From: Opitutia bacterium | GTDB taxonomy: Bacteria > Verrucomicrobiota > Verrucomicrobiae > Opitutales > UBA953 | Length of the DNA stretch: 21,652 bases | Direction of reading: 5' to 3' | Assembly: GCA_947488485.1 (NCBI GenBank) | Contig: CANKZO010000024.1 | Span: 1-21,652 of the forward strand | Shown here: piece after piece, positions 17,730 through 21,652 of the stretch | Numbering within the stretch: position 1 is the first letter of the stretch | Layout: each line of letters starts with the position of its first letter | Position numbers and translations under genes: made by a program | The notes under the pieces: generated by a model | The model's database searches: none | Told to the model about the DNA's origin: nothing | Seen by the model: the letters and a program-made list of their open reading frames with translations, nothing else

Positions 17730-18722
17730 GCCGATCGTCCGGGCGAGGAAGTCCAAGGTCGCCTGGGTGATGTCTGGCGTCTCGGAGGAACCGTTCACTT
17801 CGGCTCCGGCGAACACGCCCGTGCGCTTCCAGCTCTTCCCCTTGGGATGGAGGTCGAAGGTGTGCGGCGCGCCTTCCACGACGACATACTCGTGCGAGAC
17901 CTTGGCGGTGCGCAGGGCCTTGGCCATGGCGTCGGACTGCGCGATATCGACCGTGGTATCAGCGGTGCCGTGCAGGATGAGCACGGGCGGATCCTGCGGG
18001 TCGCACTGATTCTCCGGCAGATAGGCGGCCTGCTCCGCGGCCGAAACGCCCGGGACCTGACCTTTGCCGTGCTTGGAGAAATTGACCACGCCGTAGAAGT
18101 CGATGACCGCGGAGACCTTCGCGGAATGCTTCGCGGCGGGGTCGCCGCCCGGGCCGGTCTTATCGTCGGACAGACCGACCATGAGCGCCAGATAGCCACC
18201 GGCCGAACCGCCGGCGACGGCGATGCGATCCGGATCGAGGCCGAGCGCGTCCGCGTTGGCGCGCATCCAGCGCACGGCGTCGCGACAGTCCGCGATATTG
18301 CGCGGCCAGACGCCCGGCTTGTCCTTGGGTCCGAGGACGTAGTTGCAGCTCACGACGACATAGCCCGCGCGGGCGAGGTCGGCGCTGACGCTGGCGGAGC
18401 GATACTCCGCCTTGTCGCCACCGGTGAAGCCGCCGCCATGGATGAAAAGCACGCCGGGCCGGCGCACTTTGAGGTCGCGGGCGTAGCGGACGTAGAGGTC
18501 GAGCCGCTGCGGACGCCCCTCCGGCAGGAACACGAGATTACTGAGCCGGAAGACCGGGTTGGGCATCTCGGCGGTATAGGCCTTACCTATGGCTTCGGCA
18601 TAGCGCGCAGGGAGGTCGCTCAGCTTGTCGGCGCCAAGCTTGCCCAGTTCATAGATGCGAAGCTTGGAGTCGTCGGCGGCGAAAACAGACACCGCGAGGA
18701 GCAGGAAAAGGAGCGGACGCAT
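17724..18722 (-). CDS. Secreted alpha/beta-hydrolase esterase/lipase (HSL/BD-FAE-like)
   Basis: A 332-residue exported esterase-type enzyme. Residues 1-15 form a short signal peptide (MRPLLFLLLAVSVFA). The fold follows the hormone-sensitive lipase/feruloyl-esterase-like group: oxyanion motif HGGG (95-98) in VLFIHGGGFTGGDK, nucleophile elbow GGSAGG with Ser173, acid Asp255 in LHGTADTTV, and His287 in EGAPHTFDL. All three catalytic residues are in the right order and spacing. Expected substrates are acyl or carbohydrate esters outside the cytoplasm. The ATG lies one base after the hairpin that follows cimA, and a good promoter overlaps that hairpin, so it is probably transcribed on its own. It converges on the NYN gene. 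Confidence 0.9.
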   Translation of the reverse strand: MRPLLFLLLAVSVFAADDSKLRIYELGKLGADKLSDLPARYAEAIGKAYTAEMPNPVFRLSNLVFLPEGRPQRLDLYVRYARDLKVRRPGVLFIHGGGFTGGDKAEYRSASVSADLARAGYVVVSCNYVLGPKDKPGVWPRNIADCRDAVRWMRANADALGLDPDRIAVAGGSAGGYLALMVGLSDDKTGPGGDPAAKHSAKVSAVIDFYGVVNFSKHGKGQVPGVSAAEQAAYLPENQCDPQDPPVLILHGTADTTVDIAQSDAMAKALRTAKVSHEYVVVEGAPHTFDLHPKGKSWKRTGVFAGAEVNGSSETPDITQATLDFLARTIGK

Positions 18723-18723
18723 A

Positions 18724-18756
18724 AAGGGCGGGGCAGAAGTTTTCTACCCCGCCCTT
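18724..18756 (-). terminator. Strong hairpin after cimA, abutting the esterase start
   Basis: AAGGGCGGGG (18724-18733) and CCCCGCCCTT (18747-18756) pair over ten bases. After one mismatch, AGAA/TTCT extend the stem, leaving a three-base loop. It lies 26 bases past the cimA stop. Only TTTAT follows, and that includes the esterase ATG, so the U-tract is minimal. Confidence 0.7.
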
Positions 18757-18768
18757 GCAGACAGTCAA
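18741..18768 (-). promoter_or_regulatory. Likely esterase promoter overlapping the cimA terminator
   Basis: On the minus strand TTGACT (18763-18768, five of six) and TAGAAA (18741-18746, four of six) are 16 bases apart. Transcription would start near 18734, inside the hairpin, giving a leader of about 12 bases that holds only one arm of it. Confidence 0.45.
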
Positions 18769-18782
18769 CGGTCCGTCGGAGA

Positions 18783-20342
18783 TCAGGACAGCGCGTGGGC
18801 GTAACCGTCGACGATTGCCTGCAGCGAGGCTTCGACGAGGTTTTCGCTGACGCCGACCGTACCCCAGGAGGCCTTGCCGTCGGAGGAACGGATGACCACG
18901 CGGGTCTTGGCCGCGGTGCCGTCGGTACCGCCGAGGATGCGGACCTTATAATCCACGAGGCTGACCTTGGCCAGTTTCGGGAAAGACTTCACGAGGGCGG
19001 AACGCAGGGCCTGGTCGAGGGCGTGCACCGGGCCGTCGCCTTCGGCCACGGTCAGGGTCTCCTTGCCGGCGATGCTGAGGCGCACCACGGCTTCGCAATA
19101 GGCCGAGCCCTTGGCGCCGCGCGCGGTGACGTGATAGGAAGCGACTTCGAACGGCGCGGCCTTGCTCTTGCCGATATGACGGCGGAGCAGCAGGGCGAGC
19201 GACGCTTCGGCGTCTTCGAAGCTCCAACCGCCGTGCTCAAGCTTCTTGAGCTCATCGAGCGCGGTGGCGGTGGCAGGCGAATCGCGGTCGAGGTCGATGC
19301 CGAGGGACTTCGCCTTGAGGACGATGTTGCTGCGGCCGGACTGGTCGCTGACGAGCACGGTACGTTCGTTACCGACGACGGTCGGATCGACGTGCTCATA
19401 GGCGGCGGAGAACTTGCGGACGGCGTCCACGTGCGTGCCGCCCTTGTGGGCGAAGGCCGCGGTGCCGACCCACGGACGACGCGGATCAGGGGCGAGGTTG
19501 GCGACACCATCAACGAAGCGCGAGAGGCCGGCGAGGCCCTTGAGCGAGGTCGAGGAGACGCACTTCCAGCCGAACTTCAGCTGAGCGCAAGGGATGACCG
19601 CGGTGAGGTCGCAATTACCGGTGCGCTCGCCGATGCCGTTGACGGTGCCCTGGACGTGCGAGGCGCCGGCTTCGAGCGAAGCAAGGGCGTTGGCGAGACC
19701 GAGACCGGCGTCGTCGTGAGTATGGATGCCGACGGGGGTCTTCTTGAGCGCGGCGATGGCGGCGCGGGTGGCCGCGGCGACTTCTGCCGGCAGGGAACCG
19801 CCGTTGGTGTCGCAAAGGACCACGCGGTCGGCGCCACCGGCGACGGCGGCCAACATGGAGGCGATGGCGTAAGCCGGATCATCCTTCCAGCCGTCGATCG
19901 CGTGCTCGCAGTCGTAGACGACCTCACGGCGATGGGACTTCAGGAAGGCGACCGTGTCGCGGATCATCTCGAGATTCTCCTCGGGCGAGCAGCGGAGCAC
20001 CTCTCGGACGTGCAGGGCGGAAGTCTTGCCGTAGATCGTGACGACCGGGGTATCGACTTCGAGCAGGCCGCGGACCTGGGCGTCTTCGGAGGCGCGCACG
20101 CCCTTTCGGCGGGTCGACCCGAAAGCCGCCAGCTTGGCGTGCTTGAACTTGATCTTCTTCGCGCGGGCGAAGAACTCGACGTCGCGCGGATTGGAGCCCG
20201 GCCAGCCGCCTTCGATGTAGGTCATGCCGAAGCGTTCGAGCTCGGCGGCGATGCGCAGCTTGTCATCGACGGAGAAATGAATGCCCTGCCCCTGCGAGCC
20301 GTCGCGGAGGGTGGTATCATAGATTTCGATGGAGCGTGCCAT
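18783..20342 (-). CDS. cimA: (R)-citramalate synthase
   Basis: A 519-residue enzyme condensing pyruvate and acetyl-CoA to (R)-citramalate, the threonine-independent entry to isoleucine synthesis. The catalytic TIM-barrel has DTTLRDGSQGQG (9-20; Arg13, metal ligand Asp14), metal ligands His207 and His209 in GIHTHDDAGLGLANAL, and GTVNGIGERTGN (232-243). The linker HGGWSFEDAEASLALLLRR (370-388) and the C-terminal LeuA-type regulatory domain (395-515) match the long citramalate synthase subfamily and not isopropylmalate or homocitrate synthase. The C-terminal domain is where isoleucine inhibits relatives. The leader encodes an isoleucine-rich peptide and attenuator, which independently supports the assignment. 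No Shine-Dalgarno is visible before the ATG. Confidence 0.95.
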   Translation of the reverse strand: MARSIEIYDTTLRDGSQGQGIHFSVDDKLRIAAELERFGMTYIEGGWPGSNPRDVEFFARAKKIKFKHAKLAAFGSTRRKGVRASEDAQVRGLLEVDTPVVTIYGKTSALHVREVLRCSPEENLEMIRDTVAFLKSHRREVVYDCEHAIDGWKDDPAYAIASMLAAVAGGADRVVLCDTNGGSLPAEVAAATRAAIAALKKTPVGIHTHDDAGLGLANALASLEAGASHVQGTVNGIGERTGNCDLTAVIPCAQLKFGWKCVSSTSLKGLAGLSRFVDGVANLAPDPRRPWVGTAAFAHKGGTHVDAVRKFSAAYEHVDPTVVGNERTVLVSDQSGRSNIVLKAKSLGIDLDRDSPATATALDELKKLEHGGWSFEDAEASLALLLRRHIGKSKAAPFEVASYHVTARGAKGSAYCEAVVRLSIAGKETLTVAEGDGPVHALDQALRSALVKSFPKLAKVSLVDYKVRILGGTDGTAAKTRVVIRSSDGKASWGTVGVSENLVEASLQAIVDGYAHALS

Positions 20343-20379
20343 GGTCGTGTGGGTGGGAAAGAGGTGTAAAGGGAGGGGG

Positions 20380-20402
20380 CCGTTCCGGGCGCCGCGGAAC
20401 GG
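20380..20402 (-). terminator. Attenuator hairpin (3:4) upstream of cimA
   Basis: On the minus strand CCGTTCCG (20395-20402) and CGGAACGG (20380-20387) form a perfect eight-base stem with a seven-base GC-rich loop. CCCCCTCCCTTTACACC follows, a poor U-tract. This is the position of the attenuator terminator. Confidence 0.65.
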
Positions 20403-20445
20403 GGAGTCGCCCGTCGGGCGTTCCGTTCAGCGGGCTTAGAGCCCG
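20380..20445 (-). promoter_or_regulatory. Isoleucine transcription attenuator of cimA
   Basis: Three exclusive pairings can be drawn on the minus-strand RNA. Segment 1:2 pairs CGGGCT (20440-20445, the last Ile/Gly/Leu codons) with AGCCCG (20431-20436), with the leader stop in the loop. Segment 2:3 pairs CGGAACG (20419-20425) with CGTTCCG (20395-20401). Segment 3:4 is the hairpin at 20380-20402. A ribosome waiting at the isoleucine codons would mask segment 1 and leave 2:3 to form. A ribosome reaching the stop would cover segment 2 and let 3:4 form. An inner CGCCC/GGGCG stem (20408-20420) competes with the 2:3 end. The order and positions fit the classical amino-acid attenuator. Confidence 0.75.
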
Positions 20446-20525
20446 ATGATGGTAATAATCGCCGGAATGATGGCACGACCAGCCGCGGAGCGGAGGGAGG
20501 TCGAAGACTGGGCCAGGGATTCCAT
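20436..20525 (-). CDS. Isoleucine-rich leader peptide of cimA
   Basis: A 29-codon ORF, from ATG (complement of 20523-20525) to TAA, 93 bases before cimA. It ends IIPAIITIIGL, with isoleucine at positions 19, 20, 23, 24, 26 and 27, three pairs in nine codons, in both ATC and ATT forms. Nothing else in the peptide (MESLAQSSTSLRSAAGRA) suggests a functional protein. Its job is to make ribosome speed over this region depend on charged tRNA-Ile. A weak AGG lies eight bases before the start. The same frame continues upstream to 20633, but that would overlap the start of the divergent gene. Confidence 0.85.
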   Translation of the reverse strand: MESLAQSSTSLRSAAGRAIIPAIITIIGL

Positions 20526-20536
20526 GACGAAGGCCT

Positions 20537-20564
20537 GACTCCAAGGGCGGAGGCTTGGAGAGTC
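20537..20564 (-). promoter_or_regulatory. Hairpin upstream of the leader peptide
   Basis: On the minus strand GACTCTCCAAG (20554-20564) and CTTGGAGTC (20537-20545) form a nine-base stem with a two-base bulge and an eight-base loop, 12 bases before the leader ATG. Its 3' arm includes GGAG. It may be a leader structure at the transcript 5' end or an operator in the divergent gap. Confidence 0.35.
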
Positions 20565-20613
20565 AAAGGCAAAGGAGGCGGGGACGGGTCGATGCTCGCC
20601 AAAAGGCCAATAA

Positions 20614-21384
20614 ATGCCCATTAATCGCCCCATGCGACGCCTCGCCGCCCTTTTCCTGCTCTTGGCGGGCGTCGTCTCCGCTCCCGCCCAATGGCAGATC
20701 TTCGCGGAGAAACTCCCCGCCGCCGGCGCCTGGGCGACCTACCGCATGGAGACGATCCGCGATGGCCAGCCTGCGTCGGCGAGCGAACTACGTCTCTCCG
20801 TCCGCCCCGGCCGCGACGTCGACGGACGCGCCCTCGTCTGGTTCACGGTCGAGCCGGTGATGTGGCTGGGCTCCCGCGAACGTGCGCCGCTGCGTCTGCT
20901 CGTACGCCCCGACATGGACCGCGCGACGGCCAGCCGGCTCATCGAAAACTCCGCGGAGATCGTGTTCTCCAACCCGGTCAAGGGCGCCTACCACATGACG
21001 CGTGAGGATATCGCCTGGGTCTCCGACTGGGCGAAACTGACTTACACGAGCGAACTCACGACGGACGAACCGGCCAAGGAGGAGATCACCGCCGCCGGCC
21101 GCGGCTTCGCCTGCGAACGTCTCCGCATGCTCGCCTCGACCGTCACGGACCCACCGATGGTTTCGAAACAGGTCCTGGAATTTCGCGGCAAAGTCTGGCG
21201 GAGCGAAGAGGCCTCCTTCGGCGTCGTGCGCGCCGAGTGGGAAGAACGGACGACCAAGGGATCGAAGACGAAGGCCGAGACCAAGCGGATGACCCTCCTC
21301 GCGCAAGGCAAGGAGACCCCCCCGGCCGAGCCGCTTGACCGCGGCAAGGACTTCTCCGTCTGGCGGCTCATCTTCGGCCGCTGA
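20614..21384 (+). CDS. Secreted protein of unknown function
   Basis: A 256-residue exported protein. The signal peptide spans about residues 1-25 (RRLAALFLLLAGVVSAPAQW at its core), with cleavage likely after APA. The start is ATG at 20614, with AAAAGG seven bases upstream; an internal ATG at 20632 would also give a good signal peptide but has no such site. The mature part looks beta-rich with alternating hydrophobic residues (ALVWFTVEPVMWLG, VLEFRGKVWRSEEASFGVVRAEWEER), and Cys167 is its only cysteine. I recognise no family. It is divergent from the cimA leader with only 88 bases between, and its stop lies inside TGAGGCCTCA. Confidence 0.78.
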   Translation: MPINRPMRRLAALFLLLAGVVSAPAQWQIFAEKLPAAGAWATYRMETIRDGQPASASELRLSVRPGRDVDGRALVWFTVEPVMWLGSRERAPLRLLVRPDMDRATASRLIENSAEIVFSNPVKGAYHMTREDIAWVSDWAKLTYTSELTTDEPAKEEITAAGRGFACERLRMLASTVTDPPMVSKQVLEFRGKVWRSEEASFGVVRAEWEERTTKGSKTKAETKRMTLLAQGKETPPAEPLDRGKDFSVWRLIFGR

Positions 21385-21397
21385 GGCCTCAAAAGGA

Positions 21398-21429
21398 CCA
21401 GCCCACCCGGGTTGAATCGGATGGGCTGG
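21398..21429 (-). terminator. Terminator downstream of tRNA-Phe
   Basis: CCAGCCCA (21398-21405) and TGGGCTGG (21422-21429) form a perfect eight-base stem. On the minus strand it starts eight bases after the tRNA 3' end and is followed by TCCTTTTGAGG. It may also help end the plus-strand secreted-protein gene, though on that strand only GTTAAA follows. Confidence 0.75.
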
Positions 21430-21436
21430 CGTTAAA

Positions 21437-21512
21437 TGGTGGCCTGAGTCGGAATCGAACCAACGACACGACGCTCTTCAGGCGTCTGCTCTACCAACTG
21501 AGCTATCAGGCC
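21437..21512 (-). tRNA. tRNA-Phe (anticodon GAA)
   Basis: Complete cloverleaf on the minus strand: acceptor GGCCTGA/TCAGGCC, D-arm GCTC/GAGC, anticodon stem GACGC/GCGTC with loop CTGAAGA, T-arm GTTGG-TTCGATT-CCGAC, discriminator A. Anticodon GAA reads both phenylalanine codons. The CCA end is encoded (21437-21439). Confidence 0.97.
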
Positions 21513-21528
21513 AATTAACTGGACGTTC

Positions 21529-21557
21529 AGAAGGACAAAGCCCCCCTCCCCTGTCAA
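21529..21557 (-). promoter_or_regulatory. Possible promoter of tRNA-Phe
   Basis: A perfect -35 TTGACA (21552-21557, minus strand) lies 40 bases before the tRNA. The matching -10 at 17 bases (CCTTCT, 21529-21534) is poor. The distance would start transcription about 10 bases before the tRNA. Confidence 0.4.
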
Positions 21558-21573
21558 TCCGACAAGAAAGGGA

Positions 21574-21587
21574 GGCCTAAAAAGGCC
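21574..21587 (-). terminator. Terminator after the last partial gene
   Basis: GGCCT/AGGCC form a five-base stem with a TTTT loop (21574-21587, minus strand), one base past the stop codon at 21589. TCCCTTTCTTG follows. The stem is short but the position and pyrimidine-rich tail fit. Confidence 0.5.
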
Positions 21588-21588
21588 T

Positions 21589-21652
21589 TCAGAAGCTGAA
21601 TTTCCAAGCCGAGAGGCGACGTTCGACCTCGGCGATGACTTCGGCTTCGCCG
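21589..21652 (-). CDS. C-terminal end of an unidentified protein
   Basis: The last 20 codons of a minus-strand gene that enters from beyond the window: GEAEVIAEVERRLSAWKFSF, then TGA (complement of 21589-21591). The acidic helix followed by an aromatic tail is plausible protein, and a terminator follows at once. Too little is present to name it. Confidence 0.55.
   Translation of the reverse strand, partial: GEAEVIAEVERRLSAWKFSF

Follow-up and report, generated by a model that had tools for sequence, protein, structure and literature searches.

A probable isoleucine-sensing leader with alternative hairpins and no U-tract precedes cimA in a genus of Verrucomicrobiota

The stretch of DNA analysed here (21,652 nucleotides; the window) carries on its minus strand a gene, cimA (18783-20342), encoding a citramalate synthase of 519 aa (TIGR00977, 644.1 bits against a cut-off of 450). 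Upstream of it, on the same strand, the ORF list places a 29-codon ORF (20525-20436), MESLAQSSTSLRSAAGRAIIPAIITIIGL*, whose motif IIPAIITII contains six isoleucines in nine residues; at 5% Ile, the binomial probability of six Ile in one given nine-residue window is ~1e-6. Both the Ile-rich ORF and the cimA gene downstream of it had been proposed by a sequence-only reading of this DNA, and both are borne out. A second in-frame TGA (20427-20429, minus strand) lies two codons past the leader stop; 36 of the 46 loci of the same genus (33 of 42 distinct sequences) have it in frame. An 840-aa open frame on the plus strand (17847-20369), antisense to cimA and its neighbour, is probably a high-GC artefact. 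Upstream of tRNA-Phe, at 21588-21573, AGGCCTTTTTAGGCCT forms a short hairpin that resembles a terminator, with CCCTTTCTTG after it. At the gathering threshold, Rfam models matched only three tRNAs in the window, none of them on the leader, and a search of 16 related cimA loci yielded seven matches with E-values of at most 1, all lying outside the leader elements.

The distribution of the leader was analysed in 79 genomes of the family, 55 from the window's genus (hereafter g1), which belongs to freshwater Verrucomicrobia, and 24 from four other genera, and upstream regions were collected from every locus that includes the cimA 5' end. Of the 31-letter words sampled from the window, 20% also occur in the nearest genome, G001. 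Partial cimA genes lacking the 5' end (L012, L027, L044), leuA loci (L025, L026, L028-L030), loci of other families of the order (L017, L019-L024) and loci of the sister genera g15 (L056-L059, L061) and g12 (L066-L070) were set apart from the 46 g1 loci retained. An Ile-rich leader with the same RNA strands precedes cimA in all 46, which represent 45 of the 55 g1 genomes plus the window; the remaining ten g1 genomes yielded no cimA 5' end in the family search. The leader ORF is complete in 45 loci and cut by the contig end in the other (L007), with a length, by the chosen start, of 29 codons in 27 leaders and 27 codons in 18.

The Ile codons singled out by the sequence-only reading are thus kept across g1. 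The 39 distinct leaders average 5.0 Ile in their last 11 residues (minimum 3), and Ile makes up 18.8% of their residues, versus 4.3% in the called genes of the nearest genome and the window. These control genes were called by codon usage in the window and 280 kb of G001 and do not come from an annotation. The 199 leader Ile codons comprise 105 ATT, 92 ATC and 2 ATA, against 494 ATT, 3304 ATC and 43 ATA among the 3841 Ile codons of the called genes; the leaders therefore prefer an Ile codon, ATT, that is rarer elsewhere. The third codon position is the most variable in 27-codon leaders, but not in 29-codon leaders, and second positions are the least variable over the last ten codons in both length groups. 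Codon-position variability over the whole leader ORF gives no clean coding signal.

A covariance model built from the g1 leader (R1) found one copy per genome, adjoining cimA, in 45 of the 79 family genomes, all of them g1, and had no match in the 24 genomes of the sister genera. Likewise, the leader is absent, by eye and by R1, from ten g15 and g12 cimA upstream regions (L056-L059, L061, L066-L070), and g15 retains a cimA 75-78% identical to that of g1 without it. Across 387 genomes of the phylum, R1 matched four at E <= 0.1, three of which are the sampled g1 genomes; the fourth (G224, E 0.018, L118) was taken as a chance match, its position being, by eye, a gene end among ATP-synthase-like genes. 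In a tree of 60 selected CimA sequences (17 g1, 4 g15), g15 nests within g1 with support 99/98, so the leader was probably lost in g15.

A promoter-like element, with TTGACT (20566-20561), a 17-nt spacer and a weak TGGAGT (20543-20538), lies upstream of the leader ORF on the minus strand (20538-20566). Its TTGAC portion is present upstream of all 45 complete leaders, at 37-42 nt before the chosen ATG in 44; among 244 called genes, 5 have TTGACT in the 80 nt preceding them. A sigma-70 consensus scan of 20200-21652 reported no site, the TTGACT element included. Shine-Dalgarno (SD)-like 4-mers precede 17 of the 45 leader ORFs. Over the 244 called starts of the window and the 280-kb portion of G001, SD-like motifs occur before 10.2%, versus 12.7% in shuffled upstream regions, and many genes in G001 and the window may be leaderless.

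The RNA strands of the leader were delineated on a structure alignment (A2) of 42 distinct g1 sequences. A hairpin at the leader stop codon (1:2, 20431-20445, CGGGCT-CTA-AGCCCG, 96.0% of cells paired) is followed by strand 2 (CCGCTGAACGG, 20433-20423), which pairs with strand 3 (CCGTTCCGCGG, 20402-20392) in a 2:3 stem of ten pairs (A2 helix 36-46 with 67-77) with 98.8% of cells paired. Enclosed within 2:3 is an inner hairpin, CGCCC-GAC-GGGCG (20408-20420), with 88.1% of cells paired and both-sided changes in four of its five pairs. Strand 3, common to both alternative stems, also pairs with strand 4 (CGGAACGG, 20380-20387), forming a 3:4 hairpin (20402-20380) with 96.4% of cells paired. All strands are on the minus strand. 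The 1:2 and 3:4 hairpins had been proposed at these positions and stand. The sequence-only reading drew 2:3 at 20395-20425, a register that leaves one position unpaired in 22 of the 42 sequences and was replaced. It does not overlap 1:2, so those two hairpins were not mutually exclusive as drawn; the register adopted here overlaps the stop hairpin.

Pairing is retained well above that of displaced structures: 95.2% of cells are paired for 2:3 with the inner hairpin, versus 29-51% in slid structures, and 94.1% for the 3:4 state (stop hairpin, inner hairpin and 3:4), versus 21-49%. The expectation that covarying 2:3 and 3:4 stems would be found did not hold, however. Both stems hardly vary, changing solely through one-sided wobble or unpaired cells with no double changes, so that covariation cannot prove them; near-invariance is what would be expected if strand 3 has to serve two partners. 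Both-sided changes sit in the other hairpins, with four pairs in the 2:3 state, all within the inner hairpin, and five in the 3:4 state, the same hairpin contributing four and the stop hairpin one, in two sequences. The corresponding double-change cells (7 and 9, respectively) exceed all 500 shuffles, and structures slid by +1 show 6 and 7. The structural support is therefore retained pairing, not covariation. Unconstrained RNAalifold also chose the 3:4 state, with both the stop and the inner hairpin. Folding of the 103-nt window segment gave a z-score of -2.25, with 6 of 200 shuffles equally stable, and three shorter pieces gave -1.31, -0.74 and -1.68 (22, 40 and 15 of 200). The evidence that rises above chance is conservation, not folding energy.

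The dependence of these pairings on ribosome position was modelled by placing a ribosome on each codon, hiding the RNA as far as ~15 nt beyond the P-site codon's first base, and folding what follows to 12 nt past strand 4. In the window, the model gives 2:3 a probability of 0.95-0.97 when the A site lies at codons 23-27 (Ile Ile Thr Ile Ile; 20445-20459, minus strand), 0.83 at the next codon (Gly), 0.05 at Leu and 0.00 at the stop, where 3:4 reaches 0.97; the earlier Ile codons 19-20 yield just 0.36 for 2:3. Across the genus, with the ribosome at the last Ile, 2:3 is favoured over 3:4 in 41 of 45 leaders (means 0.86 and 0.09; exceptions L008, L016, L050 and L053), and at the stop 3:4 is favoured in all 45 (mean 0.83, versus 0.00 for 2:3), with values below 0.5 in seven (L014, L015, L016, L040, L050, L054, L055). 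Counting every leader Ile codon, 2:3 is favoured at 174 of 234. The ribosome-free ensemble is mixed, with 3:4 above 2:3 in 24 of 45 leaders. The leaders are related to each other, and these counts are thus non-independent trials.

Genus-wide conservation, codon-exact switching in the folding model and pathway logic together provide good support for an Ile-sensing, ribosome-stalling switch before cimA, and we regard its existence as highly probable. The conserved leader, its Ile codons, the alternative pairings and their geometry follow directly from the computation; stalling itself and the direction of control are what we infer from them. We further consider it likely, with somewhat less confidence, that the cimA 5' leader operates as a ribosome-driven reader of charged tRNA-Ile that lowers cimA when Ile is ample.

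The pathway context agrees with this reading, as the Ile codons of the leader match the end product of the CimA route, a correspondence already pointed out from the sequence. Ten of the 11 genomes tested contain a match to acetolactate synthase (TIGR00118) that passes its cut-off. No conserved Ile, Val or Leu leader was found in the ilvB upstream regions of nine genus loci and one g15 locus, two of which (L125 and L126) have a 9-codon ORF, MLPLLAVLF, in common, and no branched-chain leader was evident by eye in four leuA upstream regions. Control therefore appears to sit at the Ile-specific first step, subject to the caveat that a single deaminase model was used. That model, TIGR01127 for threonine deaminase (ilvA), exceeds its cut-off in none of the 11 genomes, with at most 69 bits in nine g1 and g15 genomes and 294 bits, still below cut-off, in one g14 genome. 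The cut-off is strict, being missed by 9 of 14 named control genomes as well, and the ilvA argument consequently rests on low scores. CimA is absent (E <= 1e-60) from eight of eight g14 genomes; g1 and g15, on the one hand, and g14, on the other, may perhaps represent two alternative routes into Ile within one family.

Under the proposed mechanism, RNA polymerase would begin transcription a short way before the leader ORF, which a ribosome would translate. When Ile is short, the ribosome would wait at the IITII codons, leaving strand 2 free to pair with strand 3; this would block 3:4, and cimA would be expressed. When Ile is ample, the ribosome would instead reach the stop codon and cover strand 2, strand 3 would pair with strand 4, and cimA expression would presumably fall. 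If the ribosome is absent, the stop hairpin would occupy the 5' part of strand 2.

Leaders before cimA are not confined to g1. CimA proteins of g1 are 59-64% identical to those of a subdivision-3/Limisphaerales-type group, versus 49-53% to those of families of their own order. Among the 32 loci of this group (L178-L210 without the g15 locus L186), six (L189, L190, L192, which is the same as L311, L198, L207 and L209) carry an element before cimA, and these six form one clade in the CimA tree (support 100/99). The element comprises CTGAACG or CTGAGCG, CCCCGTTCCGC (CCCCGTTTCCGC in one locus) and a GGGG-TTT arm; the TGA of its first word is the stop of an open frame, and the strand 2 and strand 3 words are as in the window, the whole ending in a U-tract terminator. 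A hairpin scan detected four of the six terminators, the other two carrying stem mismatches; the hairpin of L209, AAAACCCCGTTCCGCGGCGCGGAACGGGGTTTT, has a z-score of -5.03, with none of 200 shuffles equally stable. The open frames hold roughly 1-5 Ile in their last dozen or so codons, several with a GTG start or no clear start, so that an Ile run is not evident in all six. The second TGA of g1 leaders (CGCTGAACG) occupies the place of the leader stop in these elements, and where in frame it has the appearance of a vestigial stop of this kind. A covariance model built from the six elements (R2) matched three of nine g1 loci, over the full length of the model and at the right place (E 0.0016, 0.0038 and 0.015 over 37 loci), which we read as a hint of homology only. 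As a finder, R2 proved non-specific and was rejected, with matches in 167 of 387 genomes, the best at 35.6 bits versus 97-109 for three rescored seeds; 30 loci taken from its matches contained no cimA.

A third kind of leader is found in f21, a family of the same class, where cimA is preceded by an Ile-rich ORF typically ending in ..SIAIRIINGL(L/P)CA*. At least four Ile in ten residues occur at 17 of 30 f21 loci, versus 0.4 in shuffles (maximum 2). A DNA profile matches 28 of 31 loci, 20 of which are profile seeds and a few of which are Ile-poor, and misses L340 (with just 15 nt of upstream sequence), L344 and L356. Loci such as L249, L253, L343, L347 and L353 share a leader of the form ..AIRII[NS]GL..CA*, and in these a long hairpin spans the stop codon. 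A clear T7 terminator is seen at L253; most other f21 loci have none. An Acido-Lenti-1 RNA match is present at L249:649-711 (38 bits; gathering score 37). Cross-profile searches among the three leader kinds gave best E-values of 3.1 and 6, no better than shuffles. Of 29 loci from the order of G380, none has at least four Ile in ten residues, and one (L311) has the canonical subdivision-3-type element. Ile-rich upstream ORFs before 62 other cimA genes numbered five (shuffled mean 1.1, maximum 6) and were not taken as real. The occurrence of pre-cimA leaders in other families of the phylum suggests repeated gain or deep ancestry, and permits the comparison of U-tract and U-less forms.

The remaining question concerns the output of the 3:4 hairpin. 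None of the three ordinary outputs, a U-tract terminator, Rho or closing of the start site, is supported. The Rho RNA-binding domain (Rho_RNA_bind, PF07497) was found in 0 of 55 g1 and 0 of 6 g15 draft genomes, versus 18 of 18 genomes of the remaining family genera and 9 of 14 control genomes; as the genomes are drafts, its absence rests on their number. Full-length Rho (TIGR00767) was above cut-off in 0 of 11 genomes, with weak scores of 18-24 bits, and in 8 of 14 controls. The missing domain in the 61 g1 and g15 genomes is apparently a clean lineage-specific loss. Downstream of 3:4, thymines occupy positions +10, +11 and +12 after the stem in 87, 91 and 74% of the 46 loci (T20370-20368 in the window), while the distance from stem to ATG ranges from 21 to 49 nt, indicating that the T position is tied to the hairpin and not to the start codon; these residues are a possible pause or release site. 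Extra pairing by the 9-nt tail that would place T20370 beside a stem was sought by eye, and nothing consistent emerged.

Our first choice for the output is premature transcription end at or just past 3:4 through a hairpin-dependent, non-canonical signal, a proposal to which we assign a little less than an even chance. The fuller version, in which a Rho-less lineage controls cimA by a ribosome-sensed switch acting through a U-less terminating hairpin, with transcription ending ~10-12 nt downstream at the conserved T, is tentative and should be taken as rather doubtful. If true, it would constitute a regulated type of terminator distinct from both intrinsic and Rho-dependent ones, and would be one of several Ile leaders before cimA in the phylum.

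The switch might instead act on the translation of cimA or the stability of its mRNA, leaving transcription unaffected, as the finding of neither a terminator nor Rho could suggest. An SD-like 4-mer precedes cimA in none of the 46 loci, and ribosome entry would thus rely on an open 5' region. The predicted openness of the start region (-20 to +12), however, is nearly equal in the two states (unpaired 0.703 under stalling versus 0.724 at the stop, differing by more than 0.1 in 2 of 45 leaders), and the variable distance between 3:4 and the ATG also speaks against control at this point, which we consider unlikely.

A lower probability still attaches to classical attenuation, with 3:4 as an ordinary Rho-independent terminator. 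The leader and the order and geometry of 2:3 and 3:4 fit it, and the similar pre-cimA element of the subdivision-3-type clade does carry a U-tract hairpin (L209), but a U-tract is absent after 3:4 in 46 of 46 g1 loci. The eight nucleotides after the hairpin contain 0-3 T (1 in the window), and the T-tract score (nT) has a median of 0.11 and a maximum of 1.21, versus medians of 1.98 for 53 gene-end hairpins from 280 kb of the nearest genome and the window, 49% of which score 2 or more, and 0.54 for 128 random hairpins. Textbook terminators do exist in the nearest genome (e.g. AAGGGCCCCGGAAACGGGGCCCTT-TTTGTTTAG). The earlier description of a classical attenuator consequently stands for the leader, its Ile codons and the exclusive, conserved 2:3 and 3:4 pairings, and fails for the terminator; because a U-tract terminator was looked for and not found, we do not file the element as a classical attenuator, and an intrinsic terminator here seems improbable.

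Much less probable is a role of the inverted repeat as a repressor-binding DNA operator, with the leader ORF incidental. Strand 3 is nearly invariant and 3:4 in the window is a perfect 8-bp inverted repeat, as an operator might be, but strand 4 varies in ways that preserve RNA pairing, with A to G changes at one pair giving G-U wobble in eight sequences and a displacement by 6 nt in L018, L045 and L046 that retains complementarity to GTTCCG. The leader ORF, moreover, stays Ile-rich whether of 27 or 29 codons, and f21 has Ile-rich pre-cimA leaders in which the repeat was not noticed. Least probable of all is Rho-dependent attenuation, in which a bare pyrimidine-rich stretch past the leader stop would load Rho: the G-poor segment from 3:4 to cimA (20379-20343, minus strand; 1 G in 37, 81% C+T) is exceptional, being equalled upstream of 1 of 119 genes, and a model of this type was proposed for terminator-less Mycobacterium cys leaders (PMC1262725), but the stretch is just 21-49 nt long among loci and Rho was not found in the genomes searched.

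Non-canonical, hairpin-dependent termination thus remains our preferred output of the switch. Since Rho was not found and the hairpin lacks a U-tract, the leader offers a natural and probably regulated RNA for studying Rho-less termination; how transcription ends in Rho-less cyanobacteria is likewise an open question (PMC13289151). The element would also place ribosome-sensed amino-acid control on cimA and in the Verrucomicrobiota. Among the matches listed in openly licensed literature, neither a cimA attenuator nor this leader was reported, and no case of ribosome-sensed amino-acid control in Verrucomicrobiota appeared.

Ribosome-mediated transcription attenuators of amino-acid operons are represented by the trp, his, leu, ilv and thr leaders of enterobacteria. 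Like them, the g1 element has a short leader ORF with end-product codons near its stop, 2:3 and 3:4 hairpins that exclude each other, and a gene of the same pathway downstream. Unlike them, it precedes cimA instead of ilv or leu genes, no U-tract follows its 3:4 hairpin, Rho was not found, and its leader start appears to lie near a promoter-like element, SD-like motifs being scarce. T-boxes recognise tRNA through direct contact and work without a leader ORF. Those preceding ileS in Actinobacteria (PMC1262725) are, like the g1 leader, tied to isoleucine and tRNA charging, whereas the g1 leader has an ORF and no Rfam match on the element.

The ilvBNC attenuator of Corynebacterium glutamicum (PMC11857589) comprises terminator, antiterminator and anti-antiterminator hairpins, and its transcription terminator is reported as proved. 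It likewise serves a branched-chain operon, and its anti-antiterminator resembles the g1 stop hairpin; it controls acetohydroxyacid synthase, however, whereas the g1 leader precedes cimA. The Mycobacterium cys leader peptides, which have no obvious terminators and for which a Rho-type model was proposed, share with g1 a run of regulatory codons, the lack of a terminator and pyrimidine-rich motifs before the gene, but differ in having Rho and no conserved hairpins (PMC1262725), whereas in g1 the alternative hairpins are conserved and Rho was not found. Many transcript ends of Rho-less cyanobacteria are without canonical intrinsic features (PMC13289151). These bacteria resemble g1, in which Rho was not found, in their Rho-less setting; the cyanobacterial ends are broadly without strong structure, whereas g1 has a conserved hairpin with no U-tract. 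Set beside these systems, the g1 element works like an amino-acid attenuator, yet stands outside the classical type.
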